Positions 41,993 to 57,571 of a stretch of 64,000 nt of DNA are shown one piece after another. This DNA is from Herminiimonas sp. KBW02. Lineage in GTDB: Bacteria > Pseudomonadota > Gammaproteobacteria > Burkholderiales > Burkholderiaceae_D. The translations under genes and the position numbers were made by a program. Location of the stretch: assembly GCF_003852535.1 (NCBI RefSeq), contig NZ_QAJP01000005.1, forward strand, positions 392,403 through 456,402, given 5' to 3'. Every line of letters begins with the position of its first letter. Position 1 is the first letter of the stretch. A model generated the notes under the pieces. It was not told where the DNA came from. It did not search any database and saw nothing but the letters and a program-made list of their open reading frames with translations.

Positions 41993-42050
41993 CCACCTGA
42001 GGCATTGATCTTTATGCTCATCTTCCATGAACCCGATTCCTGGAGAAATG

Positions 42051-43643
42051 ATGAGAACCACCCGCCCAGTCAGTTATGCCGAACACGGCATGGTCGCTAC
42101 CGCCCACTACCTGGCGACCGGCGCAGCACTGGACGTGTTGAAGGAAGGCGGTACGGCAGTAGATGCAGCAATCTGCGCGGCCGCTACCATGAGCGTGGTA
42201 TTGCCGCACATGATAGGCATAGGCGGCGATGCATTCTGGATGATCCACGACGCCAAATCAAATACCTTGTCCGCGCTGAACGGCAGCGGTACCTGCGGTA
42301 AAGACATCACACTGGATACTTACCGCGGCATGGACGCGATTCCTAATCGCGGTCCGCAATCTGCGATTACCGTACCTGGCGCCATCGATAGCTGGGCATT
42401 GGCACACGAACGTTTCGGCACCATGCCACTGAGCCGCTTGCTGGCACCGGCCATCCGCTATGCGAGTGAAGGCGTGGCGGTCACGCAAGATATCAGCCGC
42501 TGGATAACAGACGACACTGAAGATTTCCGCAAGGATCCCGGCTCGGCCGGCATCTTCCTGAAAAACGGCAACGCCTATCAGCCTGGCGAACGCCTGCAAC
42601 AACCGGCATTGGCCAAGACGCTGGAAAATATCGCACAGCACGGTCCGCGTTACTTCTACGAAGAAACTGCCCAGTCGATCGTGTCTTACCTGAAGAGCCA
42701 GGGCGGTTTGTTGACGGTTGAAGACTTCCAGAACTACCACGCGAAATGGGTCAAACCGATCTCGACCAACTATCGCGGCTTCCAGGCTTTCCAGGTGCCG
42801 CCACCATCGCAAGGTATCGCTGGCCTGATGATCCTGAACTTCCTGAACGGTATCGATCTGTCAGGACTGGATGCGAATTCGCCTGAGTATTACAACGCCA
42901 TGATCCAGGCCATCAAATGGGCTTTCAACAAGCGCGACAAGTACCTGACTGACCCTGAGTTCTCCGATATTCCTATCGAAAAATTGCTCGACCCGGAACT
43001 GGCAAATGCCGAGCGCGCAGAGTGGCTGGCCGATACCAGACGTACCCACGAAAATCGTCCGGGCGGCAGTGACACCACCTTCATCAGCATCGCCGATAAA
43101 TACGGCAATGCAGTCGGCCTGGTGCAAAGCCTGTACTTCGACTTTGGCTCTTGCGTTACTGATCCGGGTTCGGGCGTGCTGATGCAAAACCGTGGCGCGT
43201 TTTTCTCGCTGCAGCCGGATCATCCGAACGTCCTCAAGCCAGGCAAGCAAAGTGCATCGACGCTGATGTCGGGCATGTTGTTCAAGGACGGCAAACCATA
43301 CATGGTGTATGGCACGCAAGGCGGCGAAGTGCAGCCACAGACGCAGACCTCGGTCGCGACACGCGTGGTTGATTTCGGCCTGAACGTGCAGGAAGCCATC
43401 GATGCACCGCGCGTGCTGTATGGTCGCTCATGGGGCGATACATCGAACAAATTATTGCTGGAGTCCGCAGCACCGGAAGCAACCTTCGACGCCTTGCGTG
43501 AACAAGGGCATCCGGTGGAGCCGGCACAGTGGCCATTCCCGCGCATGGGTACGGCACAGGCGATTCGTTTGCCGGGCCCATGGTCGCCGTTCTTTGAAGG
43601 CGGTGCAGATCCGCGAGGCGAGGGGATTGCTTTAGGTTTTTAG
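42051..43643 (+). CDS. Gamma-glutamyltranspeptidase-like Ntn hydrolase, cytoplasmic
   Basis: A 530-residue member of the gamma-glutamyltranspeptidase/acylase family, normally made as one chain that cleaves itself. The autoprocessing site is in GGSDTTFISIADKYGN, which makes Thr342 the likely nucleophile; SLYFDFGSCVTDPGSG and YGTQGGEVQPQT follow. No signal peptide is visible, unlike in classic periplasmic enzymes. The start at 42051 is chosen for its spacing to GGAG. It begins a cluster with an amidohydrolase, a DUF1097 protein and a second family member, suggesting breakdown of a gamma-glutamyl or other amide compound. Confidence 0.88.
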   Translation: MRTTRPVSYAEHGMVATAHYLATGAALDVLKEGGTAVDAAICAAATMSVVLPHMIGIGGDAFWMIHDAKSNTLSALNGSGTCGKDITLDTYRGMDAIPNRGPQSAITVPGAIDSWALAHERFGTMPLSRLLAPAIRYASEGVAVTQDISRWITDDTEDFRKDPGSAGIFLKNGNAYQPGERLQQPALAKTLENIAQHGPRYFYEETAQSIVSYLKSQGGLLTVEDFQNYHAKWVKPISTNYRGFQAFQVPPPSQGIAGLMILNFLNGIDLSGLDANSPEYYNAMIQAIKWAFNKRDKYLTDPEFSDIPIEKLLDPELANAERAEWLADTRRTHENRPGGSDTTFISIADKYGNAVGLVQSLYFDFGSCVTDPGSGVLMQNRGAFFSLQPDHPNVLKPGKQSASTLMSGMLFKDGKPYMVYGTQGGEVQPQTQTSVATRVVDFGLNVQEAIDAPRVLYGRSWGDTSNKLLLESAAPEATFDALREQGHPVEPAQWPFPRMGTAQAIRLPGPWSPFFEGGADPRGEGIALGF

Positions 43644-43667
43644 TTGTTTCATCCAGAGGAGAAGGTT

Positions 43668-44984
43668 ATGGAGATGGACTTGTTAATACACAATGTACGC
43701 GTGTGGGATGACAAACCACTGATGGACATTGGTATCAAGGATGGAAAGATTGCTGCCATAGAAGAAGGCCTTGAAGCCTCGGCAAAAGAAGCAATCGACG
43801 CAGAAGGCCGTGCCGTTATTCCAGGCATGGTTGAACCACACATGCATTTGGAAAAAGCATTCTTGCACCGCCGCTTGCCGCCGGTCCTGGGTACGCTGGA
43901 AGAAGCGATCCGCGTGACCGGTATCCTGAAAAGCAAACAGGAACGCAAGGACGTGCTGGATCGCTCGCGCCAGGTGCTCGACATGGCCGTCAAAAACGGT
44001 ACGGTTGCTTTGCGCGCGCACCCGGACGTTGATTTGATCCAGGGCCTGATCGGTGTGGAAACCCTGGTCGAGCTGCGTGACGAATACAAAGATCTGATGG
44101 ATATTCAGATCGTTGCATTCCCGCAGGAAGGCATCATCAAATCACCAGGCACTACGGACCTGATGGAGAAATCCATGCAGATGGGTGCGGACGTGGTGGG
44201 TGGTTGCCCCTACAACGAACTGACGTGGGAAGACACCAAACGTCATATCGACATCGTGTTTGACATGGCGATCAAACATGATGCGCCTATCGACCTGCAC
44301 GCGGATTTTTCCGATGATGCCAGCGATCAGCGTTTTGCGGCCACTGCTTACGTCGCACAAAAAACCATTGATACCGGCTATCAGGGACGCGTCTCGATGG
44401 GTCACGTCACCAGTCTGGGTTCACTTGATCCGGATGAACTGAAGCCAGTAATCGAATTGCTGCGCAAGGCAGACATCAGCATCGTTACCTTGCCTGCAAC
44501 CGATCTCTATCTCGGTGGTCGCAACGATGTGAAAAATCGTCGTCGTGGTTTGACGCCAGTACGTTCACTGCATGAAGCAGGTGTTAACGTCGCTTACTCG
44601 TCGAACAATATCCGCAACGCGTTCACGCCGTTCGGTAAGGCAGACATGCTGGTGATCGGCAATATGCTGGCGCACGCAGTGTCGTTCGGTACGCCTGCAC
44701 ATCAGGCCGCCATCCTCGAAATGGGTACCACCAATGCCGCACGTTCCATCGGCATCGGCGGTACCTACGGCGTCGCTGTCGGCAAGCAGGCTGATCTGGT
44801 CATCCTCGATACCTATCAGGTTGCCGATGCCTTGCTCGATATCCCGGCGCGCTCATGGGTAATCAAGCGCGGCAAGATCACTGTCGTTACCCAGCACAAA
44901 GCGGAAATCCATCGTCACGGCTGTTGCGGTGCGAAAGACCATGGCGCGAAAGACCATGTCTGCGAACCGGCTACCGCCAAATAA
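43668..44984 (+). CDS. Cytosine deaminase-like amidohydrolase
   Basis: A 438-residue amidohydrolase of the cytosine deaminase/AtzC branch. Metal ligands H58 and H60 (EPHMHLEKAF), DLHADFSDD and GHVTSLGSLD are in place. The position of the catalytic Asp reads SSNNIRNAF with Asn313-Asn314, where CodA has Asp. The C-terminus ends in a Cys/His-rich tail with a repeated GAKDH (HRHGCCGAKDHGAKDHVCEP). The ATG at 43668 has a good site (GAGGAGAAGG). It is 24 bases after the ggt-like gene and clearly in the same operon. The substrate is unknown; a cyclic amide or amidine derived from the same compound is plausible. Confidence 0.85.
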   Translation: MEMDLLIHNVRVWDDKPLMDIGIKDGKIAAIEEGLEASAKEAIDAEGRAVIPGMVEPHMHLEKAFLHRRLPPVLGTLEEAIRVTGILKSKQERKDVLDRSRQVLDMAVKNGTVALRAHPDVDLIQGLIGVETLVELRDEYKDLMDIQIVAFPQEGIIKSPGTTDLMEKSMQMGADVVGGCPYNELTWEDTKRHIDIVFDMAIKHDAPIDLHADFSDDASDQRFAATAYVAQKTIDTGYQGRVSMGHVTSLGSLDPDELKPVIELLRKADISIVTLPATDLYLGGRNDVKNRRRGLTPVRSLHEAGVNVAYSSNNIRNAFTPFGKADMLVIGNMLAHAVSFGTPAHQAAILEMGTTNAARSIGIGGTYGVAVGKQADLVILDTYQVADALLDIPARSWVIKRGKITVVTQHKAEIHRHGCCGAKDHGAKDHVCEPATAK

Positions 44985-45028
44985 TAAATACATAAGACAC
45001 ACATCATTTGATTAATCAGGAGACAGAA

Positions 45029-45577
45029 ATGAAAAAGCCACCACACGCCGTTGTTGCATCACTACTCGCAGTTACCACCGTCCTTATGGTTCAGTTACCG
45101 TGGCATTTGCCAGTCTGGGCGATCTTTGTCAGCTGGGCCGGCACCTTTGCCATGGGTGGTCCGACCATCGCTAACATGAAGCGTATCTGGCCGACGCTGG
45201 CCTTCGGTTCCTTTACCGGCTTCCTGGTCGTCACCTGTTTTGGTATCGCATCGAAAAACTTCTCCGGCACCAATCTGGTGATCGCAGAAATGATCATCCT
45301 GTTCATCCTCAACACAGCGATGATCATGATGGCGCGCGTACCAGGCCTGAGCTTTGTGCCAGGTATGTTCTTCGGTTTCGCTTCGTTCTTTGCGACCATG
45401 TTCGGCGGTTTCGGTCCTACACCTAAAGATCCGCTGTCGGCACTGGGCGTTGTGATTGTGATGAATGCGCTGGGTCCTATCTATGCATGGATCACAGCTA
45501 ACTTCTCGCATCGTCATGTGCCATTGGAAAATACTTTCCCTGCAGCAAAACAACAGCAGGTACAACAAAAAGTATAA
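45029..45577 (+). CDS. DUF1097 inner-membrane protein
   Basis: A 182-residue integral membrane protein with about five hydrophobic helices (for example SLLAVTTVLMVQLPWHLPVW, TGFLVVTCFGIASK, VIAEMIILFILNTAMIMMA) and a Gln-rich cytoplasmic end (AAKQQQVQQKV). It resembles the DUF1097/YcdZ family, which has no assigned function. Its place between two gamma-glutamyltranspeptidase-like genes suggests a transport or channel role for the substrate or product. The ATG at 45029 follows AGGAGAC; a terminator follows at 45591. Confidence 0.82.
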   Translation: MKKPPHAVVASLLAVTTVLMVQLPWHLPVWAIFVSWAGTFAMGGPTIANMKRIWPTLAFGSFTGFLVVTCFGIASKNFSGTNLVIAEMIILFILNTAMIMMARVPGLSFVPGMFFGFASFFATMFGGFGPTPKDPLSALGVVIVMNALGPIYAWITANFSHRHVPLENTFPAAKQQQVQQKV

Positions 45578-45590
45578 GCCTGCAAGTGTC

Positions 45591-45624
45591 ACCGCCCCCT
45601 CTGAAAGACGGGGCGGTTTTTTTT
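45591..45624 (+). terminator. Terminator after the DUF1097 gene
   Basis: Stem ACCGCCCC/GGGGCGGT with an 11-base loop and eight T. It splits the locus into a three-gene transcript and a separately transcribed second ggt-like gene. Confidence 0.95.
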
Positions 45625-45764
45625 CCCCTATGCGATTACTTCGCGGCTATTATTGGCTAGCCGTAACGTTGCATGCATTACCTAAAAGAAAATAGGCAAG
45701 CTCGCATCAATCGCTGTGGAATTTGTTGGTGCGTGTCTTGTCTCAATTAAAAAATGGAGAAGAC

Positions 45765-47456
45765 ATGAAGAACAAGATGTTTCAGGATATGACGAGACGA
45801 GACTTTTTATCTGCTTCCGGTGCTATGGCACTGGGCTCGCTGGCGCCACTGTCGCTGGCACAGGATGCCAAGCCCAAAAATGTGCTGGCAACCTCGACCA
45901 AAGGCATGGTCACCAGCCCGCATGAACTGGCTACCAAGGCCGGGCTGGATGTTTTGAAATCGGGTGGTAATGCGATTGAAGCAGCGATTGCAATCGCCAG
46001 CTGCCTGAATGTCACGTATCCCCATTTCTCGGGATTTGGTGGCGACGCTTTCATGATCATCAGTGATCGCAATGGCAAAGTTCAGACCTTGTCCGGCATC
46101 GGCCAGGCTCCCCAGATACTCCCGCAATACAGCGGTTCCATTCCGGTACGTGGTCCCGGATCCATGCTGACGACAGCTGCTAACGTCGATACGCTGGGCA
46201 AAGCCTTCGATATCAGCAAGGAGCTTGCAGGACGCAAGAGCTGGGCGGAATTATTGAAGCCGGCAATAGGCTATGCACGTAACGGTTTTCCGGTGACGCC
46301 ATCAGAGCGCTTCTGGATGGATTTCCGCCAAAAGGAATTGGCAGATATGCCGGCCATAGCCAATCATTTTATGGTGAATGGTAAAGCGCCGGAAGTCGGT
46401 GACTTATACAAGCAGCCGCAACTCGCCGACACACTGGAAATGCTGGCGGTGCGCGGTTACCGTGACTTCTATGACGGCAAGCTGGCTGAACGCATTGCGA
46501 AAGGTTTGAAGGAGGCAGGTTCACCATTGACTGCATCCGACCTGGCTAAAACGCAGGCCCGCATAGAACCGCCGTTGCGTGTTGCGTATCGCGGTGGTGA
46601 GTTGTTGGCCAACCAGCCGCCGACCCAGGGTATTACCACGCTGGAAATCATGGGCATACTGGACAGATTCGATCTGAAAAAAATTCCGGAAGGCAGTGCC
46701 GACTACTATCACGTCGTGGTGGAAGCAGTGAAGCGCGCTTTCATAGACCGTAACCAATACGTGGCTGATCCGGAGTTTGTACATGTGCCGTCCGCAACGA
46801 TGCTGTCCAAATACAACCTCGACAAATGGGCGGGTCGTATCAAGATGGATCAGGCACTGGCCTGGCCGCATGTATTTAAACATGGCGATACGGTCTATAT
46901 AGGCGCGACCGATAATCAAGGTAATTCAGTGTCCATGTTGCAGACTGTGTACTTCGACTGGGGGAGTGGCGTGATGGCGGGCGACACCGGCCTCCTGTGG
47001 CATAACCGTGGTGCTTCTTTCACCCTGAAGCAGGGACATCAGAATGTACTGCAACCAGGCAAGCGTCCTTTCCATACGCTCAATCCGGGTATGTACCTGA
47101 AGAATGGCAAGCCGCAGATCCTGTACGGCACGCAGGGGGCAGATGGTCAGCCGCAAACACTGGCGGCCATCCTTACTCGCATGATCGACTATGGCATGGA
47201 TCCGGCGACGGCTTTGGCCAGACCGCGCTTCTTGTTGGGTAAAACCTTCTCGGATACACGAGATAGCTTGAAGCTGGAAAAGGATGCAGGCGAACAGGTG
47301 TTCCGGGAATTGGCGCGACGTGGTCACGAGATGAGTGTCATACCGGCACAAAGTCCATTGGCAGGGCAACCTGGGGCGATCATGATCAACCAGAAAACAG
47401 GAGTGTTTACTGGTGCGCATGACCCACGCAGCGACGGCAGGGCTTTGGGCGTTTAA
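45765..47456 (+). CDS. Tat-exported gamma-glutamyltranspeptidase-like Ntn hydrolase
   Basis: A 563-residue gamma-glutamyltranspeptidase-family protein with a twin-arginine signal (MTRRDFLSASGAMALGSLAP, Arg11-Arg12), so it should be folded and exported to the periplasm by Tat. The predicted nucleophile is Thr376 in HGDTVYIGATDNQGN; DWGSGVMAGDTG and YGTQGADGQPQT match the first copy. The ATG at 45765 is chosen for its GGAGA site and because it places the RR motif correctly. It is separated from the upstream operon by a terminator and a 140-base gap, and is followed by two hairpins. Confidence 0.9.
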   Translation: MKNKMFQDMTRRDFLSASGAMALGSLAPLSLAQDAKPKNVLATSTKGMVTSPHELATKAGLDVLKSGGNAIEAAIAIASCLNVTYPHFSGFGGDAFMIISDRNGKVQTLSGIGQAPQILPQYSGSIPVRGPGSMLTTAANVDTLGKAFDISKELAGRKSWAELLKPAIGYARNGFPVTPSERFWMDFRQKELADMPAIANHFMVNGKAPEVGDLYKQPQLADTLEMLAVRGYRDFYDGKLAERIAKGLKEAGSPLTASDLAKTQARIEPPLRVAYRGGELLANQPPTQGITTLEIMGILDRFDLKKIPEGSADYYHVVVEAVKRAFIDRNQYVADPEFVHVPSATMLSKYNLDKWAGRIKMDQALAWPHVFKHGDTVYIGATDNQGNSVSMLQTVYFDWGSGVMAGDTGLLWHNRGASFTLKQGHQNVLQPGKRPFHTLNPGMYLKNGKPQILYGTQGADGQPQTLAAILTRMIDYGMDPATALARPRFLLGKTFSDTRDSLKLEKDAGEQVFRELARRGHEMSVIPAQSPLAGQPGAIMINQKTGVFTGAHDPRSDGRALGV

Positions 47457-47533
47457 TGCAGGGAGCGTTCCTTGACGTGTTAACGACACGTTAAGGGAAT
47501 CGCTGTGTTGTACGAAGCGAGCGCGCATAAAAA

Positions 47534-47563
47534 TGCCCGATCAGTATCCGGTCTGATCGGGCA
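47534..47563 (-). terminator. Terminator hairpin 1 (minus-strand reading)
   Basis: Stem TGCCCGATCA/TGATCGGGCA with a ten-base loop. On the minus strand the stem is followed by TTTTTA, so it fits termination of the small Ala/Lys-rich protein gene read from the right. Confidence 0.8.
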
Positions 47564-47564
47564 A

Positions 47565-47594
47565 TAAAAAAGACAGGCAAGACCTGTCTTTTTT
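47565..47594. terminator. Terminator hairpin 2 (bidirectional)
   Basis: Arms AAAAAAGACAGG and CCTGTCTTTTTT with loop CAAGA. It lies one base from hairpin 1, between the convergent ggt-like and small-protein genes. Confidence 0.93.
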
Positions 47595-47606
47595 AATTAC
47601 TGCGAA

Positions 47607-47807
47607 TTACTTGGCTGGTGCAGCTGCTTTTGCTTTCTTAGCTTTTTTGTGTTTTTTAGCGTGTGTTTTGGTTGCTTTGGCTGGGGTTGCAGCTTCTGTT
47701 TTTGCAGCGACTGGAGCTGGGGCAGCAGCAGGTGCTGGAGCAGCAGCTTGTGCAAAAACGGTGGAGGCAAACAGACCGGCAACCAGGGCAGCGATTAATT
47801 TATTCAT
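47607..47807 (-). CDS. Small secreted Ala/Pro/Lys-rich protein
   Basis: A 66-residue protein with an N-terminal signal peptide (MNKLIAALVAGLFASTVFAQ). The mature part is low-complexity: an Ala/Pro stretch followed by a strongly basic Lys/His tail (KATKTHAKKHKKAKKAKAAA). Such proteins are common in Oxalobacteraceae and resemble acid-shock-type or nucleic-acid-binding basic peptides, but no function is known. Two terminators follow it, suggesting high expression. Confidence 0.75.
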   Translation of the reverse strand: MNKLIAALVAGLFASTVFAQAAAPAPAAAPAPVAAKTEAATPAKATKTHAKKHKKAKKAKAAAPAK

Positions 47808-48110
47808 TTGAGTGCTCTCTCTAAAGTATTAGGAAATTTTTGCGAACTGCTTAGTCAGTTCGTACGTATATAACGCCAGCCAATTAATGCGGTTGACGCG
47901 TTTACGCAAATATTTTGAAGTGATTTTCAGAGGGAAAACTATGTGTTTTTCGTGAAAAAATCGTTAAGGATTTGTGACGATTTTTGATCTTCCGCAGTCA
48001 TCTCTGGCAGCGTCCGACTACTGCATTTGCAGTATTTACTCCCGGTAATCCCATTGCTATTCTCGCCGCCATCAGCCGTCTATGTATACGGCGTGGCCAG
48101 GGAGAAGCAC
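47808..48110. other. Intergenic region with two divergent promoters expected
   Basis: A 303-base gap between the small basic protein and the Gln-rich secreted protein. The part nearest the minus-strand gene is AT-rich. No open frame, hairpin or known operator was recognised. A possible upstream ATG for the next gene at 48027 is not favoured. Confidence 0.3.
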
Positions 48111-49979
48111 ATGTACTTATTTACCTCTATATATAGATCCGGCTCCGTTATCTCGGTACGGCAGCAATGGGTGTTGTGTTGTGCTGCGCCGGTCTTGTTG
48201 ACACTTGTTTCGCTGAATCCCGCGCTGGTCAGAGCACAAGACGTGCAAGGTATCGATGTGGATCTGGGACGGGCCATGCAGCAGCGGCCTCTTGTCCAAC
48301 AAGAGCAGCAGTCAGGTAGTCAGCGCGCGCCCGCTCCATTGGCGGATAGTACGTTGCAGCGTATTGCAAATACGCTCAAGAACCTGACACCTGCAGGGCG
48401 TGACATAGTGCTGAGCAAGGCCTACACGGCGGAGCAAAGACAGCAGATTCTGAATTACATGCAGGTGCAGACTAAACAGCAGGAAATCACACCGCAACCT
48501 CAGCAATTAACGCTGGAGCAGCGCAGGCAATTGATGCTGACATCGCCGTCCGAAATGACGCAGCAACAGACTGTGCCGGAAGAAAAAAAGAAAACCGAAC
48601 AGCTGACAACGCAGCAGCAAAAGCTGCCGCCGAAGACCTTGCAGCAGCAAGAGCAGGTGAAGGAAGAAATTAAACAACCGACGAAACTGACGCTTGAAGA
48701 GCAGAAACTGTTATTGCTGCCACAGCAGCTGGAGCAACAGAAGAAGATAGAGCAAGTTCAGACTGAGCTGGCAAAAGAACAAATCAAGCAGACTGAAAAA
48801 CCGACGCCAGAACAGCAAAAGCAGCTGTTGGTGATAAAACAGTCTGAGCCACAAAAGCAGCCGGAAAAAATTCAGCCACAGCAATTGAAAGAAGTCATCA
48901 AGCAAGTCGAGCAACCTGCCCCGGAACAAGCAAAGCAAATCTTGCAGACCACGCAAACCAGCCCGCCAGCAGTTCTGCCCCCTAATAGCCCGGCGCAGTT
49001 GAAGTATCAGACCTTGCTGGATGCAGGTGTGTTCTCCGCCAGTAGTGGTACGACGTCAGTTCCGGATGCAACGATGACGCGTGCACAATTCGCGATGATT
49101 GCTGCCAGGCTGCAGGAATTGGCGACCCAATCAGGCGCTACCTTTTCCGATATACCAAGCTTGCCATGGGGTGAACTGAGCGGAGCGCAGACGATCGGCA
49201 CGATAGAGGGCGTTGCTAAGCCTTCTGTCACTGTCGTTTCCGATGACAAGAAAACTTCGGCTGATTTTATGGAACTGCTGGCGGCATACAGCAAAGGAAA
49301 ATTGAGTCAGGCAGAGCTCGATCAGTTGATAGCAAAAATCGGTTCGGCTAATTTACCGACGAGCCAAACTACAACTCCCGTAAAAAGCGATGCTCCTATC
49401 CTTAACGCAAATAAGGCCGTCGAGGGGATAGTCGTACCTGGCGGAACGGCTGTGGCAGCGGGTGTCGCGGGTATAACAGCTGGTACGCTAGGTATGATAC
49501 AGGCGGCATTAGCGGCAGCGCAGGCGGCTGCCATTGCAGCATCCAGTAGTGCGAACAATATCGATCTGGAAACCGCCGTAACAGTCGGCGCTAACTACAC
49601 GGTGGTCACGCCGCGTGCCAATTTTCCCGCCAATCTGAATGCAACTTTTAATGGCCGCATGACCGGGACCCTGAGCGATAGTTCGACAGTCGGCGCTAAC
49701 CTGACCATGAACGTCAACTTTACCAACATAGGTAATGGCACACCGATAGGCGGCAACGTCCAGTTCGACAACAACAAAGGCAGTGCAAGCTTTAATAGTG
49801 TTGCTTACATCGGCGGATATGTCGGTGGTGGCATGAGTGGCACATATAACAATCAAGCTATGACTGGCTTTATTCGAAACGGACAGTTCTTCGGCCCGGC
49901 TGCCAACGCAGTCAAGGGTTCCTGGGATATGACCACAAACAGCGTCAGTGGCGGCGGCAGCTTTGCTGCTACACGTTGA
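48111..49979 (+). CDS. Gln-rich secreted protein with TbpB-like C-terminal barrel, putative Slam cargo
   Basis: A 622-residue protein of unknown function. Reading from the N-terminus: a long signal peptide (ending LVSLNPALVRAQ) without a lipobox at the cleavage site; a Gln/Glu/Lys-rich, probably coiled-coil part with three tandem 38-residue repeats (residues 184-297); an SLH-like segment (about 298-365: LLDAGVFSAS, TRAQFAMIAARL, FSDIPSLPWG); an Ala-rich linker (AAALAAAQAAAIAAS type); and a C-terminal ~135-residue beta-rich domain with FNGRMTGTLSD, GNVQFDNNKGSASF and GQFFGPAANAVKGSW. The last motif resembles the F-G-P-x-A-x-E-x-G-G-x-F signature of TbpB-type barrels recognised by Slam proteins. 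The next gene, 37 bases on, encodes a Slam-like pore. The start at 48111 has a GGGAGAAG site. Confidence 0.7.
   Translation: MYLFTSIYRSGSVISVRQQWVLCCAAPVLLTLVSLNPALVRAQDVQGIDVDLGRAMQQRPLVQQEQQSGSQRAPAPLADSTLQRIANTLKNLTPAGRDIVLSKAYTAEQRQQILNYMQVQTKQQEITPQPQQLTLEQRRQLMLTSPSEMTQQQTVPEEKKKTEQLTTQQQKLPPKTLQQQEQVKEEIKQPTKLTLEEQKLLLLPQQLEQQKKIEQVQTELAKEQIKQTEKPTPEQQKQLLVIKQSEPQKQPEKIQPQQLKEVIKQVEQPAPEQAKQILQTTQTSPPAVLPPNSPAQLKYQTLLDAGVFSASSGTTSVPDATMTRAQFAMIAARLQELATQSGATFSDIPSLPWGELSGAQTIGTIEGVAKPSVTVVSDDKKTSADFMELLAAYSKGKLSQAELDQLIAKIGSANLPTSQTTTPVKSDAPILNANKAVEGIVVPGGTAVAAGVAGITAGTLGMIQAALAAAQAAAIAASSSANNIDLETAVTVGANYTVVTPRANFPANLNATFNGRMTGTLSDSSTVGANLTMNVNFTNIGNGTPIGGNVQFDNNKGSASFNSVAYIGGYVGGGMSGTYNNQAMTGFIRNGQFFGPAANAVKGSWDMTTNSVSGGGSFAATR
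48660..49001 (+). repeat. Three tandem 38-residue coding repeats
   Basis: Units of exactly 114 bases begin at 48660 (KEEIKQPTKLTLEEQKLLLL), 48774 (KEQIKQTEKPTPEQQKQLLV) and 48888 (KEVIKQVEQPAPEQAKQILQ). The first half of each is well conserved and the second half diverged; the third unit grades into the following domain. A related LTLEQRRQLML occurs further upstream. Confidence 0.8.
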
Positions 49980-50016
49980 TGTCACGCCAGACATTTACTC
50001 CCTACCCATTTCATCC

Positions 50017-51366
50017 ATGAATCATATTCTCCGTTCGGCTATCGTCGTCTTAATGTTTTCTGTTCCTGTGGCTTACGCGGCGACAGCTACTCCCGATAGT
50101 CAAAGCGAATTATTGGTGGCGCGTTTGATGCAGGAAAACGGTCGGCCGGATATGGCATGTGCATTGCTGGCAGATACGCCTGTAAACAGTGTGGATGCAG
50201 ATCGTCTGTATGTACTCGCGCGCTGCAATGCGTCCCTGCAGCGGATAGATACGGCGATTGCCTACTATCAGCGTGTGATCGCTTTAAAGCCGGCGGAAGC
50301 CAATCCGCGCGTTGAGCTGGCTGCGATCATGGTTGCGCTGGATCGCAAGGATGAAGCGGCACAGCTATACAAGCAAACCTTGCCTTTGCTGCCAGCCGGA
50401 CAAGTATCGACCCAGATGAATAACCTGATCGAGCAACTGGGGCGTGATGACCCGGCTGCCTTCGCACGCCAGGCATCGGGCAAACCCTGGTCGCTGGAGT
50501 TCTATGCGGGGCTGGTACATGACAGCAATATCAACGGCGGCCCCGTGTCGAATATAGTCCCGGCGACTGTCGGTGGTTTTCCAGGCAATTTCATTTTGTC
50601 ACCCGATGCGATGCCGCGTTCTTCATGGGGTGCAAGTGGCAGTCTGACCGGCAGTTATCTGGTGCCGCTGAACGAGCGCTGGTCGGTGCTGTATCAGGGT
50701 GTATTGCTGGGGAATGGCTACTTCGATACGTCCGATTTCAATAATGAATACATGTCCTTGTCGGCAGCCTTCATTTATCGCGCCCAGGACTGGAGTATGA
50801 GCATACAACCGAATATTGGTTTTTCGCGCCAGGCGAATCGCATGAATGAAACGACACCTGGTGTAATCGCACGTTTTTCGCGTAGCCTGAATCCGACCTG
50901 GTCACTGACCGGTTCGCTCGGCTACATCAACCGCACCGTGCATCTGGATAACAATAGAAACGCAGATGGTGTGCTCGGCAGCATCGGCGTAGTCGCGCAA
51001 GTCCAGCCGAATTTGCAGGCGGGTACTGATTACAATGTGCAGCGTGAGCACGCCGATGCTGCGGTGTACTCGCGTCGCCTGGAAGGGCCTAGCGTGTTTG
51101 CTGTCTATCGCATTAAGCCGCAATGGACGGTAGTCGGCAACTATAGTCATTCCAAGGTGAAGTATGACGAAGGCAGCTTCTTCTTCCCGGCACGTAAAGA
51201 TACGCAAAAGACTGCCAGCCTGACCAGTCTGTGGGACATCAGCGCATGGGCCGGACGCAATATGGTGGTGCGGGCGCAATATACCCAGATCGATAATCCG
51301 TCGAATATCGGTTACAGCAATTACTCACGCAATATCTTCAGCGTGGGTATGCAGACGCAATTCTGA
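50017..51366 (+). CDS. Slam-like outer-membrane protein (TPR plus beta-barrel, DUF560)
   Basis: A 449-residue protein with a signal peptide (VVLMFSVPVAYA). A TPR-like helical N-domain follows (about 30-155, with RLYVLARCNASLQRIDTAIA and DRKDEAAQLYKQTLPLLPAG), then a ~290-residue beta-barrel from residue 158 (WSLEFYAGLVHDSNINGGP) ending in a terminal Phe (VGMQTQF), the usual outer-membrane assembly signal. This two-domain plan matches surface lipoprotein assembly modulators (Slam; type XI secretion), which move TbpB-like proteins across the outer membrane. It directly follows the Gln-rich protein, its likely cargo. Start chosen at MNHILRSAIVV; an earlier in-frame ATG overlaps the cargo gene. 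Confidence 0.78.
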   Translation: MNHILRSAIVVLMFSVPVAYAATATPDSQSELLVARLMQENGRPDMACALLADTPVNSVDADRLYVLARCNASLQRIDTAIAYYQRVIALKPAEANPRVELAAIMVALDRKDEAAQLYKQTLPLLPAGQVSTQMNNLIEQLGRDDPAAFARQASGKPWSLEFYAGLVHDSNINGGPVSNIVPATVGGFPGNFILSPDAMPRSSWGASGSLTGSYLVPLNERWSVLYQGVLLGNGYFDTSDFNNEYMSLSAAFIYRAQDWSMSIQPNIGFSRQANRMNETTPGVIARFSRSLNPTWSLTGSLGYINRTVHLDNNRNADGVLGSIGVVAQVQPNLQAGTDYNVQREHADAAVYSRRLEGPSVFAVYRIKPQWTVVGNYSHSKVKYDEGSFFFPARKDTQKTASLTSLWDISAWAGRNMVVRAQYTQIDNPSNIGYSNYSRNIFSVGMQTQF

Positions 51367-51374
51367 TACGTGAT

Positions 51375-51986
51375 TTAAAGCAGGCCCTGATGCATCGCAT
51401 AACGCGTCAGTTCAACTGCGTTGTGCAGCGATAGTTTGGCCATCAGGTTTTGTTTGTGCTTGCGGACGGTGAAGATACTGAGTTGCAGCGTATCGGCGAT
51501 CTCCTGTGATGACTTGCCCGCGGCGACCAGTTTCAGGATTTGCTGTTCACGCGGCGTGACGGTCTGATCTTCCTGATCCTGGAAGTGCGTCAGCGGCCCC
51601 AGTAGTTTGCTGACATAGCGTTGATTGCTTAGCACGGTCGGGATGGCTTCGAGTAATTCGCTGCTGTCCTCCAATTTTAGCAAATAGCCGTCAGCGCCCG
51701 CAGCAAAAGCCTGACGCACACTGTTCTGATCAGTTGAACCGGTCAGGATCAGGATTTTGATGTGCGGGTGTTGCTGCTTGATGCGCGCAGTGAGGGTAAT
51801 GCCGTGGCAGCCGGGCAGGTCAAGATCGAGCAGCAGCAAATCGACGGAGTGCTGTGTCAGCAATTCCTCGACTTGCATCCCGCTACCGGTATCCGCGACG
51901 ATCTGCATGTCCGGGACGTGCGCCAGTAAGGAGCGGAGTCCTTCGCGGATCAGGGTGTGATCTTCTGCAATGAGGATATTGGTCAT
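51375..51986 (-). CDS. NarL/LuxR-family response regulator
   Basis: A 203-residue regulator. The receiver domain starts MTNILIAEDHTLIREGLRSL, with phospho-acceptor Asp54 (LLLLDLDLPGCHG) and switch Thr in ILTGST. The LuxR helix-turn-helix is VTPREQQILKLVAAGKSSQE plus TVRKHKQNLMAKL. The ATG at 51986 gives a normal family start; upstream codons are not conserved. It is divergent from the hybrid kinase at 52103 and convergent with the Slam-like gene, 8 bases from its end, with no terminator between. Confidence 0.93.
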   Translation of the reverse strand: MTNILIAEDHTLIREGLRSLLAHVPDMQIVADTGSGMQVEELLTQHSVDLLLLDLDLPGCHGITLTARIKQQHPHIKILILTGSTDQNSVRQAFAAGADGYLLKLEDSSELLEAIPTVLSNQRYVSKLLGPLTHFQDQEDQTVTPREQQILKLVAAGKSSQEIADTLQLSIFTVRKHKQNLMAKLSLHNAVELTRYAMHQGLL

Positions 51987-52102
51987 GGAGCCGGGCGCGT
52001 GATAATTTCCGCTGGGACTTATATTGTTGCACGGTAATAATAAGCAGATATTACACTGCGGGGCAGCGAGCATCCATTTTCCTTGTTTTTGGCGGGACAT
52101 CC

Positions 52103-53869
52103 ATGAACTATCAGCCAGCTGCGTCAGCAGTTGAGATGCGCATATTCGACGAACTGGTGAATGTCCTGTACCGGCAGGCGACGCCTATTTTTTTTGGCAA
52201 CTTTTCAGTTGTCATCCTCTCGGTTTACCTGCTTTGGAATGAGCTGGCACACAGCGTATTGCTGTCATGGGCCGCTGCCATCTTCCTGCTGACGCTGATC
52301 CGGATCGTGATCGTACGCCGCGATTTGCGTCTGACGCATCGTCCGGATCAGGCGGCACGGCGTGCATGGATTTATACCTTGTTCGCCGGGTTATCCGGCT
52401 GCTTGTGGGGTTCTATCGGGATATTTTTCTTTGCGCCTGATAGCACCATAGTGACCGTCTTCATTTGCATCCTGCTGGCTGGCATGACCGGTGGTTCAGT
52501 TGCATCGCAGTCTTCCTTTCCGCCGGCGTATTACGCGTTTGCCTTGCCCACTGTCTTGCCGTTTGCCATCCGCTGCTTCATGTATGGTGGCCCCTTGTTT
52601 TCGGTGCTGGCCTTGTTGTCGCTGTTCTTGCTCGGCGTGAATCTGGCCTACAGCAGGAATGTCCATCGCACCGTACGTGAGGCGGTATCGCTGCGTTTTG
52701 AAAATAACGAACTGATTGCGCAGCTGCGACAGGAGAAGGAGCGTGCCGAATCGGCCAGCCGTTCCAAGTCGCAGTTCCTGGCCGCCGCCAGCCACGATTT
52801 GCGCCAGCCTACGCATGCACTGGGTTTGTACATCGCCACCTTGCGCGCCATGTGCAACGCGCCCGCAGTACGCGGTGAGGAGGTCGGCAATATCGCCGGT
52901 AAATTGCAGACTGCCTTAAAAGGCCTGGTGCAGTTGCTGGATGTATTGCTGGATATTTCCAAACTGGACGCCGGGGCGGTCAAGGTCAAGCGTGAAGTAT
53001 TTGATTTGCAGGATGTACTGGAAACGATAGACCAGCAATTTTCCGCGGTCGCGGTTGAGCAAAAACTGCGCTTCATTGTCAGGCCGGCTGCGGTACTGGT
53101 ACAAACTGACCGTGCCTTGCTGCACAGCATACTGGCGAATTTTGTGTCGAATGCCTTGCGTTATACCGAGCGTGGCAAGGTATTGGTTGGCGCGCGCAGG
53201 CGCGGGGATTTTGTCGAGGTACAAGTGCTGGATACCGGCATTGGTATTGCGGCCGGGCAGTCACAGCTGATTTTCAGCGAGTTTTATCAGGTGGGGAATG
53301 CAGCACGGCGTCGTGAGCATGGCCTGGGCCTGGGGCTGGCGATCGTCAAGCGCACGGCAGACTTGCTGAAGATACGCATAGGACTGCGTTCGACACCCGG
53401 GCGCGGCTCGGTCTTTTCCGTCTGGTTGCCGCTGGCTCCGCCGGTCGAGGCAGTAGCGAACCGGGAAAAGCCGGTGCCTGTGGCGTCCGGTACCGCGAAA
53501 AACATACTGGTGATAGATGACGATGCAAGTGTGCTGGATAGCATGCGTTTACTGCTGTCATCCTGGGGGCATCAGGTTACTGCCGTTTCGTCGCTGGGCG
53601 CGGCTTTGCAGGCGGTGAAAACACAGCAGGGCGGGAGCGGGCTGGCGTTTGACCTGATCCTGAGCGATTTCCGGTTGACGGAGAATGTCAGTGGTGTCGA
53701 CGTGGTGCAGGCGGTACGGCAAGCCAGTGGCTATACCATCCCGGCGGTGGTGATTACAGGTGATACCTCGGTGGAGAGCATACGCAGTATCGCCGATGCG
53801 AATTTACGTATCCTGCATAAGCCGCTGGCGCCGGAGATGTTGCAGGAAGTGTTGCGTGATTTGCACTAA
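52103..53869 (+). CDS. Membrane hybrid histidine kinase with C-terminal receiver
   Basis: A 588-residue kinase. Five to six hydrophobic helices occupy about residues 28-190 (for example FFGNFSVVILSVYLLW, FAGLSGCLWGSIGIFFF, VLALLSLFLLGVNLAYS). A HisKA helix with His231 (SQFLAAASHDLRQPTHALGL), an HATPase domain (DTGIGIAAGQ, HGLGLGLAIVKRTADLL) and a receiver (NILVIDDDASVLDSM, Asp522 in LILSDFRL) follow. It is divergent from the NarL-type regulator across about 116 bases and is probably its partner. Membrane-domain kinases of this HDLRQPTHAL type are frequent in Burkholderiales with unknown signals. Confidence 0.93.
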   Translation: MNYQPAASAVEMRIFDELVNVLYRQATPIFFGNFSVVILSVYLLWNELAHSVLLSWAAAIFLLTLIRIVIVRRDLRLTHRPDQAARRAWIYTLFAGLSGCLWGSIGIFFFAPDSTIVTVFICILLAGMTGGSVASQSSFPPAYYAFALPTVLPFAIRCFMYGGPLFSVLALLSLFLLGVNLAYSRNVHRTVREAVSLRFENNELIAQLRQEKERAESASRSKSQFLAAASHDLRQPTHALGLYIATLRAMCNAPAVRGEEVGNIAGKLQTALKGLVQLLDVLLDISKLDAGAVKVKREVFDLQDVLETIDQQFSAVAVEQKLRFIVRPAAVLVQTDRALLHSILANFVSNALRYTERGKVLVGARRRGDFVEVQVLDTGIGIAAGQSQLIFSEFYQVGNAARRREHGLGLGLAIVKRTADLLKIRIGLRSTPGRGSVFSVWLPLAPPVEAVANREKPVPVASGTAKNILVIDDDASVLDSMRLLLSSWGHQVTAVSSLGAALQAVKTQQGGSGLAFDLILSDFRLTENVSGVDVVQAVRQASGYTIPAVVITGDTSVESIRSIADANLRILHKPLAPEMLQEVLRDLH

Positions 53870-54079
53870 ATTTTGGTTTTAACCGTCAATTCAGTTCATA
53901 AAATCTGCATACTTACGCAAACTGCGTTTAAAGTAAGTCCGAGAAGTAGATCCGAGCCGTCATGGTATACGCTTGTTAATAAAGAAAAATTTCGTAGATA
54001 GAAATCTTTCCTAAAACTATTAAAGCACCAGTGCATCTAAAAGATGCATGCTACCAATGCAGTAGCCACGGGACATCGA

Positions 54080-56209
54080 ATGCGACCAAAAACACCGGAG
54101 CGCTTGCGGCTAGCTACCCTAGTGACGATAGGGGTGTGCGCGACCGTGATCGTAACCATGCTGACCTTGCTGGTGCTGATCGATCATTTCGCCGCAACCT
54201 ACGCCAAGCAACAGGCGCAAGAACGATTGCAGCAACTATCGTGGCAAATGCGCGATTCGATGGATCGCGGTATGAGCCGCATGATAGATCATGCGCAAGT
54301 GATAGCCGACCTGGCTCCGGTACGTGACGGACAGAATCCTGCCGAGATCAGGCGCGTATTCGACAGCGTGCGTAAAAACTTCCCCAATTACGCCTGGATA
54401 GGCTTAACCAACCCTGAAGGCGTCGTTTACGCTGCAGCCAGCGGCTTGCTGGAAGGCGCTGATGTCAGCCAGCGCCCATGGTTTAAAGGCGGGGAAAAAC
54501 GGATCTTTGTCGGCGACTATCATCCTGCGCTATTACTCGAAGATAAATTACCAGAGACCGAAGAGCGCTGGCGCTTTGTTGACGTCGCCTTGCCCGTCAC
54601 GCACAGCGATGGCAGCTACCGTGGCGTATTGGGCGTACATCTGAGCTGGAACTGGGCGCGTGGCATAGCGAATAACCTGCTGATCCCGGCAGACCGGCAA
54701 TACATGGTGGAAGTGCTGGTGGTGCGCGCAGACGGCGTGGTGATGCTGGGGCCGGATTATCTCGAAGAAAGCACCATCGTGACTGCCAGCCTGGATTTGG
54801 CACGTACCGGAAGCACTGGCGCGATCGCCGAAAAATGGCCGGACGGACGGCGCTATCTGACCGGGTATGCGCAAACCGGCACACAGATACGGGCAGGACA
54901 GCCGTCACTGAAATGGGCCATCCTGATCCGGCAGCCGGAAGAAATTGCCCTGGCTGATTTTCGCGACCTGCAACGTCAGGTCTTGTGGGTAGGTAGCGCC
55001 ATCGGCTTGTTGCTGGCTTTGATCGCGGTTGCCCTGGCGCGCCAACTGGCGAAGCCGCTGGATGAGTTGAGCGTAGTGATTACGCAGCGCAAGGAAGGCA
55101 CGGCGGCCGCTATTCCTGTGATAGATGGTTACCATGAGGTGCACTTGTTATCGCGCACCCTGGCCGACATGGTGGCACGTGAACAGCAACACGTGGGCAA
55201 GCTGCGCGCGTTGAATGAGAACCTCGAAAACCTGGTGCATGAACGCACCCAGGAGATAGAACAAAAAGCCCAGGCGCTGGAAGACGCCTTGCAACAGCAA
55301 TTGGTAATACAGGACAGATTGCAGGAGAGCGAAGCCGAGCTCAGGGCGACGCTGCAAAACGCCAACGATGCATTCATCTCCATGGATCAGGACGGCATTA
55401 TCGTCGACTGGAACGAGCAGGCCGAACACTTGCTGGGCTGGACCCACCATGAAGCAGTCGGGCAGTCGCTGGTCGAGCTGGTGGTGCCGCCGGCGATGCG
55501 GGATGGATATGCGAAAGACTTCCGGCATTTCCTGGAGACTGGTCAGAGCAATATTATCAATCGCCGTGTCGAACTCACCGCCTTGCGTCGCGATGGTGTC
55601 GAATTCCCGATAGAGCTGGCGGTTGGCTGTGTCGCCCGTCGTAAAGGTTATTTATTCATCGCCTTCCTGCACGACATCACGGAAAGAAAATTAATGCAGG
55701 CGTCATTGATGGGGATGGCGCTGAAAGATCCGCTGACCGATTTGCCGAATCGACGTGCGCTGATGCAAAAGTTGCCGGAGTCTATCGCGCGCGCAGCACG
55801 TCTTGGCAAGCCTATCGCAGTACTGTTCCTCGACCTTGATGGCTTCAAAGGTGTGAATGATGGTTATGGCCACGAAGCGGGTGACGAACTATTGCGCACG
55901 ATAGCGCAACGCATGATAGCTGCAGTTCGTACTACGGATACCGTGGCGCGCCTGGCAGGTGATGAGTTTGTGGTGGTGCTGGAGATGTTGAATGGCGATC
56001 AGGATGCGATGGAAGTTGCAGACAAAATCCTGCACGCACTGCAAGAGCCGTTTGTCTTATCGGCGGCGACAGTATCTATCTCGGCCAGCATAGGCATTGC
56101 CATGCACTGGCCGGAGGACCATACCACGCCGGAGCAATTGATTACGCTGGCAGACGGCGCCATGTATGCCGCGAAAAAGCAGGGCAAGAATCGCGCCGTT
56201 GCGGTTTAG
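54080..56209 (+). CDS. Membrane diguanylate cyclase with Cache, PAS and GGDEF domains
   Basis: A 709-residue c-di-GMP synthase. TM1 (about 12-32) and TM2 (about 300-323) enclose a periplasmic Cache-type sensor domain, followed by a HAMP-like segment and coiled coil (NLENLVHERTQEIEQKAQAL), a PAS domain (LQNANDAFISMDQDGIIVDW to FLHDITERK) and the GGDEF domain. The active-site loop is AGDEF (626-630 from this start), a common active variant of GGDEF, and RTTD five residues earlier is a standard inhibitory I-site. ATG 54080 is preferred over 54044, which lies in an inverted repeat with no ribosome site. It could link nearby surface structures to c-di-GMP. Confidence 0.9.
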   Translation: MRPKTPERLRLATLVTIGVCATVIVTMLTLLVLIDHFAATYAKQQAQERLQQLSWQMRDSMDRGMSRMIDHAQVIADLAPVRDGQNPAEIRRVFDSVRKNFPNYAWIGLTNPEGVVYAAASGLLEGADVSQRPWFKGGEKRIFVGDYHPALLLEDKLPETEERWRFVDVALPVTHSDGSYRGVLGVHLSWNWARGIANNLLIPADRQYMVEVLVVRADGVVMLGPDYLEESTIVTASLDLARTGSTGAIAEKWPDGRRYLTGYAQTGTQIRAGQPSLKWAILIRQPEEIALADFRDLQRQVLWVGSAIGLLLALIAVALARQLAKPLDELSVVITQRKEGTAAAIPVIDGYHEVHLLSRTLADMVAREQQHVGKLRALNENLENLVHERTQEIEQKAQALEDALQQQLVIQDRLQESEAELRATLQNANDAFISMDQDGIIVDWNEQAEHLLGWTHHEAVGQSLVELVVPPAMRDGYAKDFRHFLETGQSNIINRRVELTALRRDGVEFPIELAVGCVARRKGYLFIAFLHDITERKLMQASLMGMALKDPLTDLPNRRALMQKLPESIARAARLGKPIAVLFLDLDGFKGVNDGYGHEAGDELLRTIAQRMIAAVRTTDTVARLAGDEFVVVLEMLNGDQDAMEVADKILHALQEPFVLSAATVSISASIGIAMHWPEDHTTPEQLITLADGAMYAAKKQGKNRAVAV

Positions 56210-56225
56210 TCCTGGCTCTCCCGTA

Positions 56226-57503
56226 TTACTCCACGGTTTCCCACGCATTCGGTTCTTGCCTTGCATCGAGGAAGCGGCGATAGGTTCGGCCTCCCAGCCA
56301 CAAGCCGAGTGCGATCAGCGTAAAGATCATCTGACCTGCCGCCAGCGCGATGGGTGTATGCGAGAGAACCGGCGCAATTACGCCTGCAACCAATGCGCCG
56401 AGTATCGTCAGCACAAAGGATTGGCAGGAGGCGACGATGCCGCGGATATTCGGGAACAAATCCAGCACCAGTAGTGTGGCGCCCGGCGCCACCATGGACA
56501 TGCCGAAAGTATAGAAAAATAAAGGCGCGACCGACCATGGCAGGGCCGGAGGAAACAGCGCGTGATAGGTCACGTTAAACACAGCCGCACCGATCAGGAA
56601 ACCAAAACCGATCAGCACCTGGCGTGAAATCGGGATATTGCCCGCCAGTCGATTCGCGGTCAGCGCACCACAGAAAATGCCTGCCACAGTAGGGATGAAT
56701 TGCCAGCCGAACTGATCCGGCCCGAGTCCGAGATGCTCAACCAGGAACACCGGAGCTGCCGCAACATACAGGAACATGCCGGCAAAGTTGAAGGCGACTG
56801 CTCCTGCCTTTAAATGAAACAAGGGTGAACGGAATACGCGCTTGTAGCTGTGATACAGGAAGTGCGGGTTGAAAGGCTGACGCTTTTCCGGTGGCAGTGA
56901 TTCAGGTAAACGCTTGTAACAATAAATCAGCAACAGCACTGCATAAGCGAACAACGCGAGGAAGATGGTGCGCCAATCGCTATGTTTGACTATCCAGCCA
57001 CCGAGTATCGGTGCGATGGCTGGTGCGATGGAAAAAATCATGGTCACCAGTGACAGCAAACGCTCGGCTGCCGAACCTGCATACAGATCACGGATGATGG
57101 CGCGCCCGATCACCACACCCGCACCTGCAGAAATCCCTTGCAGCATGCGGAACACCCAAAGGTATTCAATGCTATGCACGGCAGCACAGGCGAGCGTTGC
57201 GACTGCAAAAACTGCGAGCGAAACCAGGATGATATTGCGGCGTCCGAATGCATCGGATAAAGCGCCATGCCACAGGATCATGACGGCGAATGAAAACAGG
57301 TAAGCAGTCAGCGTTTGCTGTACTTCAAGCGCGCTGGCGCCGAGCGAAGCCTGGATATTCGGGAATGCGGGCAGATAGGTATCTATCGAAAACGGGCCGA
57401 GCATGGACAGCGCGGCCAGCATGACAGCCAGCGCGCTGCTGTTGATAACCACGGCTGCGGCTGTGCTTGCAGGCAGCGTGTTCGTTTCTTTTGTGTCTGA
57501 CAT
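56226..57503 (-). CDS. Bcr/CflA-family MFS drug efflux transporter
   Basis: A 425-residue twelve-helix major facilitator of the drug:H+ antiporter 1 family. ALSMLGPFSIDTYLPAFPNI and the loop motif GALSDAFGRRNIILVSLAVF are typical of Bcr/CflA (bicyclomycin/chloramphenicol resistance) proteins, as is RMLQGISAGAGVVIGRAIIRD. It lies on the minus strand downstream of gabD with a 68-base gap. It is convergent with the diguanylate cyclase gene, 16 bases apart. The substrate is not predictable. Confidence 0.92.
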   Translation of the reverse strand: MSDTKETNTLPASTAAAVVINSSALAVMLAALSMLGPFSIDTYLPAFPNIQASLGASALEVQQTLTAYLFSFAVMILWHGALSDAFGRRNIILVSLAVFAVATLACAAVHSIEYLWVFRMLQGISAGAGVVIGRAIIRDLYAGSAAERLLSLVTMIFSIAPAIAPILGGWIVKHSDWRTIFLALFAYAVLLLIYCYKRLPESLPPEKRQPFNPHFLYHSYKRVFRSPLFHLKAGAVAFNFAGMFLYVAAAPVFLVEHLGLGPDQFGWQFIPTVAGIFCGALTANRLAGNIPISRQVLIGFGFLIGAAVFNVTYHALFPPALPWSVAPLFFYTFGMSMVAPGATLLVLDLFPNIRGIVASCQSFVLTILGALVAGVIAPVLSHTPIALAAGQMIFTLIALGLWLGGRTYRRFLDARQEPNAWETVE

Positions 57504-57571
57504 CGGTATAACTCTTTATTGTTGGTACTACGCTTGTGACCGATGTGATGGAGCCATGTAGTTGTGCGGGT

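Follow-up and report, generated by a model that had tools for sequence, protein, structure and literature searches.

Type XI secretion systems (T11SS) have been divided into ten clusters, and verified cargo is reported solely for members of the animal-associated cluster 1 (PMC12282271); the other nine belong mostly to water and soil organisms and hold no characterized proteins (PMC8406197). Secretion that depends on a T11SS has been demonstrated for HrpC, a soluble cargo with a single barrel (PMC8406197), and ten cargo architectures have been described, disordered and helical-repeat N-termini among them, nearly all in cluster 1 (PMC12282271). Here we analyze a locus of this kind from the betaproteobacterium Herminiimonas (genome 3.64 Mb). 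The window, by which we mean the whole stretch of 64,000 nucleotides analyzed (G000:C12:392403-456402), contains a gene for a T11SS/Slam outer-membrane protein, here called the pore, behind a gene for its candidate cargo. A sequence-only reading had proposed this pair, and the pair holds; what that reading missed is an operator with a promoter-like block ahead of the cargo gene and a two-component pair that travels with pore and cargo. Taken together, the locus is probably best explained as a T11SS export cassette under two-component control, with predicted binding, activation, export, and adhesion as parts of that explanation.

Among the closest described arrangements is T11SS subfamily 1B (HrpB/HrpC, hemophilin), in which a SlipAM pore adjoins a Sec protein that is not lipidated and has a single barrel at its C-terminus (PMC8406197). 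The window pair shares this layout but differs in that the N-terminal part of its cargo is variable and rich in Gln, Lys, and Glu, and in that the neighbors tested have no TonB or heme family, whereas a two-component pair and an operator adjoin. Cargo of the “Disordered N-terminus” and Pls-like types also carries its C-terminal barrel behind a region that is disordered or made of helical repeats, though those proteins are mostly cluster 1 lipoproteins (196 of 204 and 173 of 193, respectively; PMC12282271). Soluble barrel cargo and disordered N-termini are already known, and the regulatory link was not found in print within the literature searched. The main texts of PMC8406197 and PMC12282271 do not contain “FecR” or “two-component”; “response regulator” and “histidine kinase” are absent from the main text of the former, and the genus names, “glutamine,” “Q-rich,” and “SLH” from that of the latter. 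Searches of the open-licence literature for Herminiimonas or FecR with “surface lipoprotein assembly modifier,” and for NarL with 7-2-7 and autotransporter, returned nothing, which is a weak absence given that scope.

For the regulatory part, BvgAS follows a comparable logic, with a NarL-family regulator and a hybrid kinase controlling surface proteins. The window pair likewise combines a LuxR/NarL-type regulator with a hybrid kinase and has predicted adhesin-type targets, but its kinase core is NahK/ErcS-like and its site is a single 7-2-7 palindrome. NHBA has a long low-complexity N-terminal part before its barrel, and the window cargo resembles it in the fold of its C-terminal barrel. NHBA is a lipoprotein and is surface-exposed in E. 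coli (PMC5500766), whereas the window cargo lacks a cysteine for lipidation and lies beside its own pore.

A T11SS pore and a candidate soluble barrel cargo

The features of the pair are as follows.

48111..49979, + strand: cargo open reading frame (ORF), ATG 48111 to stop 49979, 622 amino acids (aa)
48111..48239, + strand: putative signal peptide assigned by eye, residues 1-43, with a long n-region and VRAQ at its end
48408..48965, + strand: Gln/Lys/Glu-rich variable region, residues 100-285, 26% Q, mostly low-confidence or helical in the model
48993..49121, + strand: weak SLH-like motif, residues 295-337 (PDB SLH-type chain 6cwr, E 0.0053; Pfam SLH, E 0.058)
49632..49976, + strand: predicted C-terminal beta-barrel, residues 508-622, proposed T11SS recognition domain, from the domain model and the nearest solved folds, which are known Slam cargo
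50017..51366, + strand: pore ORF, ATG 50017 to stop 51366, 449 aa, T11SS/Slam outer-membrane protein by its domains, with a TPR region (residues ~60-125) and a SlipAM domain (residues 158-449)

Judged by its domain content, the pore is a T11SS (Slam) outer-membrane protein. It matches PF04575 (SlipAM) with 48.4 bits against a cut-off of 22 (E 1.2e-12), over the full profile (1-288 of 288) and residues 158-449, and is the sole SlipAM match in the window genome. The N-terminal TPR part of a T11SS pore is also present: phmmer against PDB sequences matched TPR proteins (best E 8.1e-12), and Pfam gave TPR_2 (2.5e-5) and TPR_19 (3.5e-5), both slightly below their cut-offs, as well as TPR_Slam (0.0078). 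Apart from the TPR proteins, the phmmer search returned some weak chance matches and no Slam. The Slam-like character claimed by the sequence-only reading is thus upheld, as are the details it gave: DSNINGG is found at residues 169-175, the final residue is Phe, and both ORFs lie where it had placed them, 37 bases apart. Against H. contaminans, the ratio of nonsynonymous to synonymous substitution rates (dN/dS) of the pore is 0.08. The ORF listing also allows a longer cargo ORF starting at TTG 48027; this codon lies within the operator described below and ATG 48111 agrees with the relatives, so the TTG start is disfavored and ATG 48111 fits as the cargo start.

The cargo, whose end contains GQFFGPAANAVKGSW, is predicted to close in a barrel, as had been proposed. 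A model of the barrel domain, which like the barrel profile was made with a seven-row alignment (A4), reached a predicted local distance difference test score (pLDDT) of 86.9 and a predicted template modeling score of 0.81, with nine strand elements, two of them short, that we interpret as eight barrel strands, one of them broken. The full-length model (pLDDT 42.2, with low confidence in the N-terminal part) has eight strands in the barrel, and a PDB fold search with it gave nothing at E < 0.001. With the barrel domain, Foldseek placed NHBA and fHbp on top (lowest E 1.1e-3, probability 1.00). In VIA-align, where differences in Z below 1 are ties, the barrel aligned to fHbp (Z 13.5, root-mean-square deviation 2.3, 115 residues aligned), NHBA (6cuj; 13.1, 2.5, 122), TbpB (12.1, 2.9, 129), hemophilin (11.8, 2.9, 117), and HpuA (11.4, 3.0, 122). 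Among the seven cargo proteins, PF01298 matched all (best E 4.5e-4) and NF041636, the family of Slam-dependent surface lipoproteins, matched six (best E 4.4e-9), a barrel similarity beyond chance for the cargo group. The window protein alone falls under both cut-offs and is described here by fold and gene pairing, not as a member of either family.

We regard the protein as a candidate T11SS cargo of the Sec type. Its only cysteines, residues 23 and 24, lie within the signal peptide; because the mature part has none, it is predicted not to be a lipoprotein, as the sequence-only reading had said, and the lipobox cysteine that would follow the signal peptide of a Slam-dependent surface lipoprotein is missing. 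In an alignment of seven cargo proteins from six loci, A42 and Q43 are invariant (7/7), and only the C-terminal ~125 residues are conserved throughout. Compared with H. contaminans, dN/dS ranges from 0.13 to 0.32 by part.

The N-terminal parts are as unusual in composition as had been noted, and they are also the inconstant parts of the protein. Residues 100-285 contain 26% Q, 12% K, and 12% E. Of the 45 window ORFs of at least 150 aa (mean Q content 5.1%, standard deviation 1.9%), none is richer in Q than the cargo ORF (11.3%). Across orthologues the N-terminal part varies in length and holds at least 14% Gln in six values, with the window counted as 26% of residues 100-285; the exception is the 393-aa H. 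fonticola orthologue, which has no Gln-rich stretch and 6% Gln. The Gln-rich part is dispensable. The SLH-like segment is the weakest element of the observation: the Pfam SLH match is above the cut-off of 20.8 bits in the H. contaminans fragment (24.0 bits, E 3.8e-5) and below it in the window fragment (13.8 bits), with E 0.11 for H. fonticola, and at E 0.001 the whole window genome has no SLH match. It occurs in three Herminiimonas proteins only, is absent from four Herbaspirillum orthologues, and is the least constrained of the parts measured (dN/dS 0.32 vs 0.08-0.13). Because the Gln-rich part is missing in H. fonticola and the SLH-like part in those four Herbaspirillum proteins, neither defines the cargo group. 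The proposal that these parts mark a new type of exported protein finds no support in that form, on this ground and also because soluble single-barrel cargo and cargo with a disordered N-terminus had already been published. Pfam and NCBIfam revealed no known N-terminal ligand domain in the cargo; a match to NF037946 (TopJ, E 0.0013) was set aside because it looks like low-complexity, Gln-rich similarity.

Pore and cargo occur with a two-component pair

Two further genes lie directly beyond the pore.

51375..52100, − strand: NarL/FimZ-like response regulator, likely start 51986 (MTNILIAEDH), Response_reg 1.7e-27, GerE 1.5e-17
52103..53869, + strand: hybrid sensor histidine kinase with HisKA, HATPase_c, and receiver domains and a NahK/ErcS-like core

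The relatives compared by name were Herminiimonas contaminans, H. fonticola, Herbaspirillum autotrophicum, H. rhizosphaerae, and a Herbaspirillum metagenome-assembled genome, giving six loci with the window (the others being L068-L072); wider searches covered 195 genomes of the family and 399 of the order. Regulator, kinase, cargo, and pore are found together in six of six loci. A cargo gene adjoins a SlipAM pore in the window and in the five named loci, and the metagenome-assembled genome has two tandem cargos ahead of its pore. Besides the window, all five named loci have orthologues of both the response regulator and the kinase, and G150 has one of the regulator; the window kinase itself matches NF041832 at E 1.2e-100 (337 bits, under the cut-off of 400). 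The two-component genes follow the pore in Herminiimonas and H. autotrophicum and precede the cargo in the other two Herbaspirillum, and by blastp the Herbaspirillum loci have no flanking ORF in common with the window.

Across the family, the pore (E < 1e-100) and the cargo occur in the same 5 of 195 genomes. G140 and G127, from the genus to which the window's genome belongs, contain the pair. This pore search scored at most eight candidates per genome, and 36 of the 41 genomes with a pore match had weak ones (E 2e-7 to 1e-3), mostly to the TPR part, and were excluded from the pore orthologues. The barrel profile A4 matched seven of the 399 order genomes, the window's included, and in three of the other six (G506, G526, G284) a SlipAM match adjoins. 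Since G172, of the same genus, keeps the regulator and kinase between the same neighbors (L143) and neither cargo nor pore was found there, the cargo-pore pair behaves as a presence/absence cassette.

As a separate observation, the cargo profile gave three barrel matches within an 860-aa lipoprotein-like ORF (L098:3800-6382, G441:C36). The SlipAM match of G441 lies on a different contig.

A shared operator ahead of cargo and adhesin-type genes

The region upstream of the cargo gene contains two further elements.

48019..48034, no strand assigned: 7-2-7 inverted repeat TACTGCA-TT-TGCAGTA from the upstream-region alignment, where the NarL-type regulator is proposed to bind
48035..48063, + strand: promoter-like block, TTTACT, 17 nt, TATTCT, directly 3' of the operator

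The palindrome TACTGCATTTGCAGTA occurs once in the window genome, 76 bp 5' of the cargo ATG, and the exact pattern TACTRCANNTGYAGTA likewise has a single copy in the 3.64 Mb (reversed-pattern control, 0). All eight cargo genes examined have the operator 73-82 bp ahead of the ATG, an internal Met being taken as the start in H. rhizosphaerae. The palindrome is perfect in the window, H. contaminans, H. fonticola, and H. autotrophicum, whereas a single pair fails to match in each of the other two Herbaspirillum. In H. fonticola the change in one arm is mirrored in the other (TACTACA/TGTAGTA).

Among the family genomes, the operator is present in seven of the eight that bear the kinase (E at most 1e-100) vs 2 of the 187 others (Fisher p 1.5e-10, kinship ignored). 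The kinase genomes hold 11 sites, and the 187 without it hold three: one in G006, inside an ORF that is phage-like in appearance, and two in G176, one of them ahead of a BlaI-like gene. The reversed control pattern turns up in many of the 195 genomes as well (0 to 3 copies), so no single site is significant by itself, whereas the association with the kinase is. When two further named Herbaspirillum loci are included, there are 13 distinct sites, eight of which precede cargo. The other five lie in kinase genomes. Three stand ahead of autotransporters (G174, G172, G150); of the two in G142, one precedes TpsB/TpsA genes and the other an inverse autotransporter with an autotransporter behind it. 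Next to the palindrome, TTTACY follows directly on the 3' side in 10 of the 13 sites, and exactly 17 nt beyond stands nAnnnT in all 13 (TAnnnT in 10), counts that are not independent, the sites being related. The operator accordingly abuts a −35-like block, the usual position of an activator site. A consensus promoter scan of 47500-52500 listed 1 promoter-like site vs 3.8 expected, and the proposed block was not the one listed. An extended pattern with three mismatches matched the window genome twice. One match, G000:C11:889930 (L167/L168), is an imperfect operator with one palindrome mismatch and 17 nt between TTGTCA and TATGCT; it lies 115 bp ahead of a TpsB gene whose product is 83% identical over 463 residues to the TpsB behind the exact operator of G142.

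These elements can be arranged into a putative mechanism. The hybrid kinase would signal to the NarL-type regulator, which would bind the palindrome upstream of the −35/−10 block and activate the cargo-pore operon. From its sequence, the cargo would pass the inner membrane via Sec as a soluble protein; by analogy with the pore family, the TPR and barrel domains of the pore would engage the C-terminal barrel of the cargo and move it across the outer membrane. The variable Gln-rich or helical part, with its weak SLH-like motif in Herminiimonas, would then be released or displayed on the surface. Since this operator stands ahead of autotransporter, inverse-autotransporter, and two-partner-secretion genes in relatives, adhesion or matrix formation seems a likelier role than the capture of iron or haem. 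The most fitting view of the cargo is as one output of a regulon of surface proteins, which may span several secretion types.

Weighing the explanations

Several points weigh against a two-component-controlled T11SS cassette. The relatives are few, all Herminiimonas and Herbaspirillum, and counts among them are not independent. G062, with a kinase of 49% identity, yielded no exact operator, and none was found ahead of the regulator genes; in the three-mismatch search of the window genome the reversed control gave as many matches, so the site at C11:889930 rests on the gene behind it. On the cargo side, OmpX, an unrelated small barrel, also reaches Z 11.5 in VIA-align, as small barrels look alike, and the window cargo scores 13.2 bits with PF01298 (cut-off 26) and 14.8 with NF041636 (cut-off 80), with E 0.027 and 0.13 against NF041636 and PF01298, respectively. 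Since fHbp and NHBA are surface-exposed upon expression in E. coli (PMC5500766), which we take to be without Slam, the fold is no proof of T11SS dependence. Three of the six other genomes matched by the barrel profile (G441, G449, G221) have no SlipAM match beside the barrel match. Finally, 6 of the 8 kinase genomes contain marginal, partial BlaI-family matches (22.4-23.9 bits, cut-off 22.6).

This last point leads to the alternative that we consider unlikely but the most serious, in which another regulator, such as a repressor of the BlaI/CopY type, binds the palindrome and the two-component pair acts on different targets. A similar site is recognized by BlaI/CopY proteins, and in G176, the only genome with strong BlaI-family matches (six), a palindrome of the same pattern stands ahead of a BlaI-like gene. 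Yet two genomes with the operator, G140 and G174, gave no BlaI-family match at E 0.001, and equally marginal matches (21.0-22.9 bits) turn up in the eight operator-free Herminiimonas genomes checked. The site also abuts the −35-like block, an activator position, and accompanies the kinase across genera.

The remaining alternatives concern the cargo, and we hold both to be improbable, the second slightly more so. The pair could be of the ordinary hemophore type, with a hemophilin-like soluble carrier of heme or metal and the Gln-rich part as an inert linker; hemophilins are soluble single-barrel T11SS cargo (PMC8406197), and hemophilin is among the folds similar to the cargo barrel (Z 11.8). 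However, nine window neighbors checked against Pfam (42027-59083, regulator and kinase included) contain no TonB, TonB-dependent-receptor, or heme family, with the flanks of the other loci sampled through three ORFs; no known ligand domain was found in the N-terminal part of the cargo with Pfam and NCBIfam, and the genes behind the same operator in relatives belong to adhesin-type secretion systems. Alternatively, the cargo could stay in the periplasm, held to peptidoglycan by the motif at residues 295-337, with the pore serving something else. SLH domains bind wall polymers, which speaks for such anchoring, but the segment is the least constrained part of the protein and is missing from the Herbaspirillum orthologues, pore and cargo share the same five genomes, and the barrel resembles that of exported cargo. 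A T11SS cassette under two-component control accounts best for the locus as a whole.

FecR-domain proteins beside other SlipAM pores

A SlipAM search matched 93 of the 399 order genomes. We took 60 regions, 59 of which have a SlipAM match; they are mostly mid- or low-scoring, and the high-scoring f44 pores, taken to be Neisseria-like, were left out. In 49 of these 59 betaproteobacterial regions (L082-L094, L102-L141), an ORF with a FecR domain (146-1659 aa) lies within 1 kb on the strand of the pore, in 48 of 49 cases downstream, with a median gap of 14 bases. The FecR profile was built from nine of these ORFs, and Pfam FecR was above its cut-off in 15 of 15 candidates tried (nine plus six). 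Our script assigned neither a FecR nor a barrel neighbor to 7 of the 59 regions; among these, L131 ends at the contig end, L113 has a FecR ORF on the other strand, and L095 has a barrel ORF next to its pore. As the 22 genomes checked each contain 1 to 19 FecR matches, chance adjacency should be rare.

Within one such locus (L140:3288-6746, + strand, G236), a 1152-aa protein combines an N-terminal FecR domain with a Slam-cargo-like barrel close to the C-terminus (PF01298 3.4e-4, NF041636 3.3e-9, both under cut-off); its N-terminal part is also LapA-retention-like (NF033682 2.9e-7, under cut-off). The joining of FecR to such a barrel suggests that the FecR proteins are T11SS cargo, possibly a major cargo class of environmental T11SS. 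An hhalign comparison of FecR C-termini with the barrel profile (P 3.6e-4 over 21 columns, probability 37%) was not relied on. In a tree of 38 pores from the order, a long branch leads to one clade (100/100) that unites the six pores of the Herminiimonas and Herbaspirillum group. This clade falls on the side of the f44 pores and of further pores with barrel cargo (86/90), and 12 FecR-neighbor pores stand apart from it (81/87), neither of these two forks being firmly supported.

Near the FecR/SlipAM pair, L084:1613-3523, L089:1056-3245, and L091:7149-9449 encode TPR proteins with a family-41 (O-GlcNAc-transferase-type) glycosyltransferase domain; all three TPR-bearing ORFs tested matched PF13844 (E 1.3e-92 or lower), and the putative FecR cargo may be glycosylated. 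In L145 (G062), a related regulator and kinase adjoin a 935-aa FecR-domain protein.

Neighboring genes

Next to the kinase, window 54044-56209 encodes a diguanylate cyclase with Cache and PAS domains, which has a match in two Herminiimonas loci and none in three Herbaspirillum loci. In H. rhizosphaerae, a large Ig/cadherin-like autotransporter (L071:83-3355, + strand) adjoins the kinase, a further surface protein beside the two-component pair. Divergent from the cargo gene, window 47604-47804 (− strand) is a short Ala/Pro/Lys-rich ORF of 66 aa (MNKLIAALVAGLFASTVFAQ...), the product of which is probably secreted.

Implications

A wider reading, which we judge evenly poised between holding and failing, is that T11SS are not mainly systems for iron and host proteins. 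Under it, the cargo of Herminiimonas and Herbaspirillum would be one output of a stand-alone switch, made up of the NarL-type regulator, the hybrid kinase, and the 7-2-7 operator, which turns on the secreted surface protein present in a given strain, be it by T11SS, autotransporter, inverse autotransporter, or two-partner secretion, and the usual T11SS partner in other betaproteobacteria would be a FecR-domain protein, a cargo class absent from the T11SS papers searched. Sharing an operator places a T11SS cargo alongside classical adhesin systems and suggests a function for an otherwise featureless protein. Since cargo and promoter are both defined for this pair and a candidate inducer system adjoins, the T11SS export of a protein without a known host ligand becomes directly testable, with the G172 locus as a natural presence/absence comparison.

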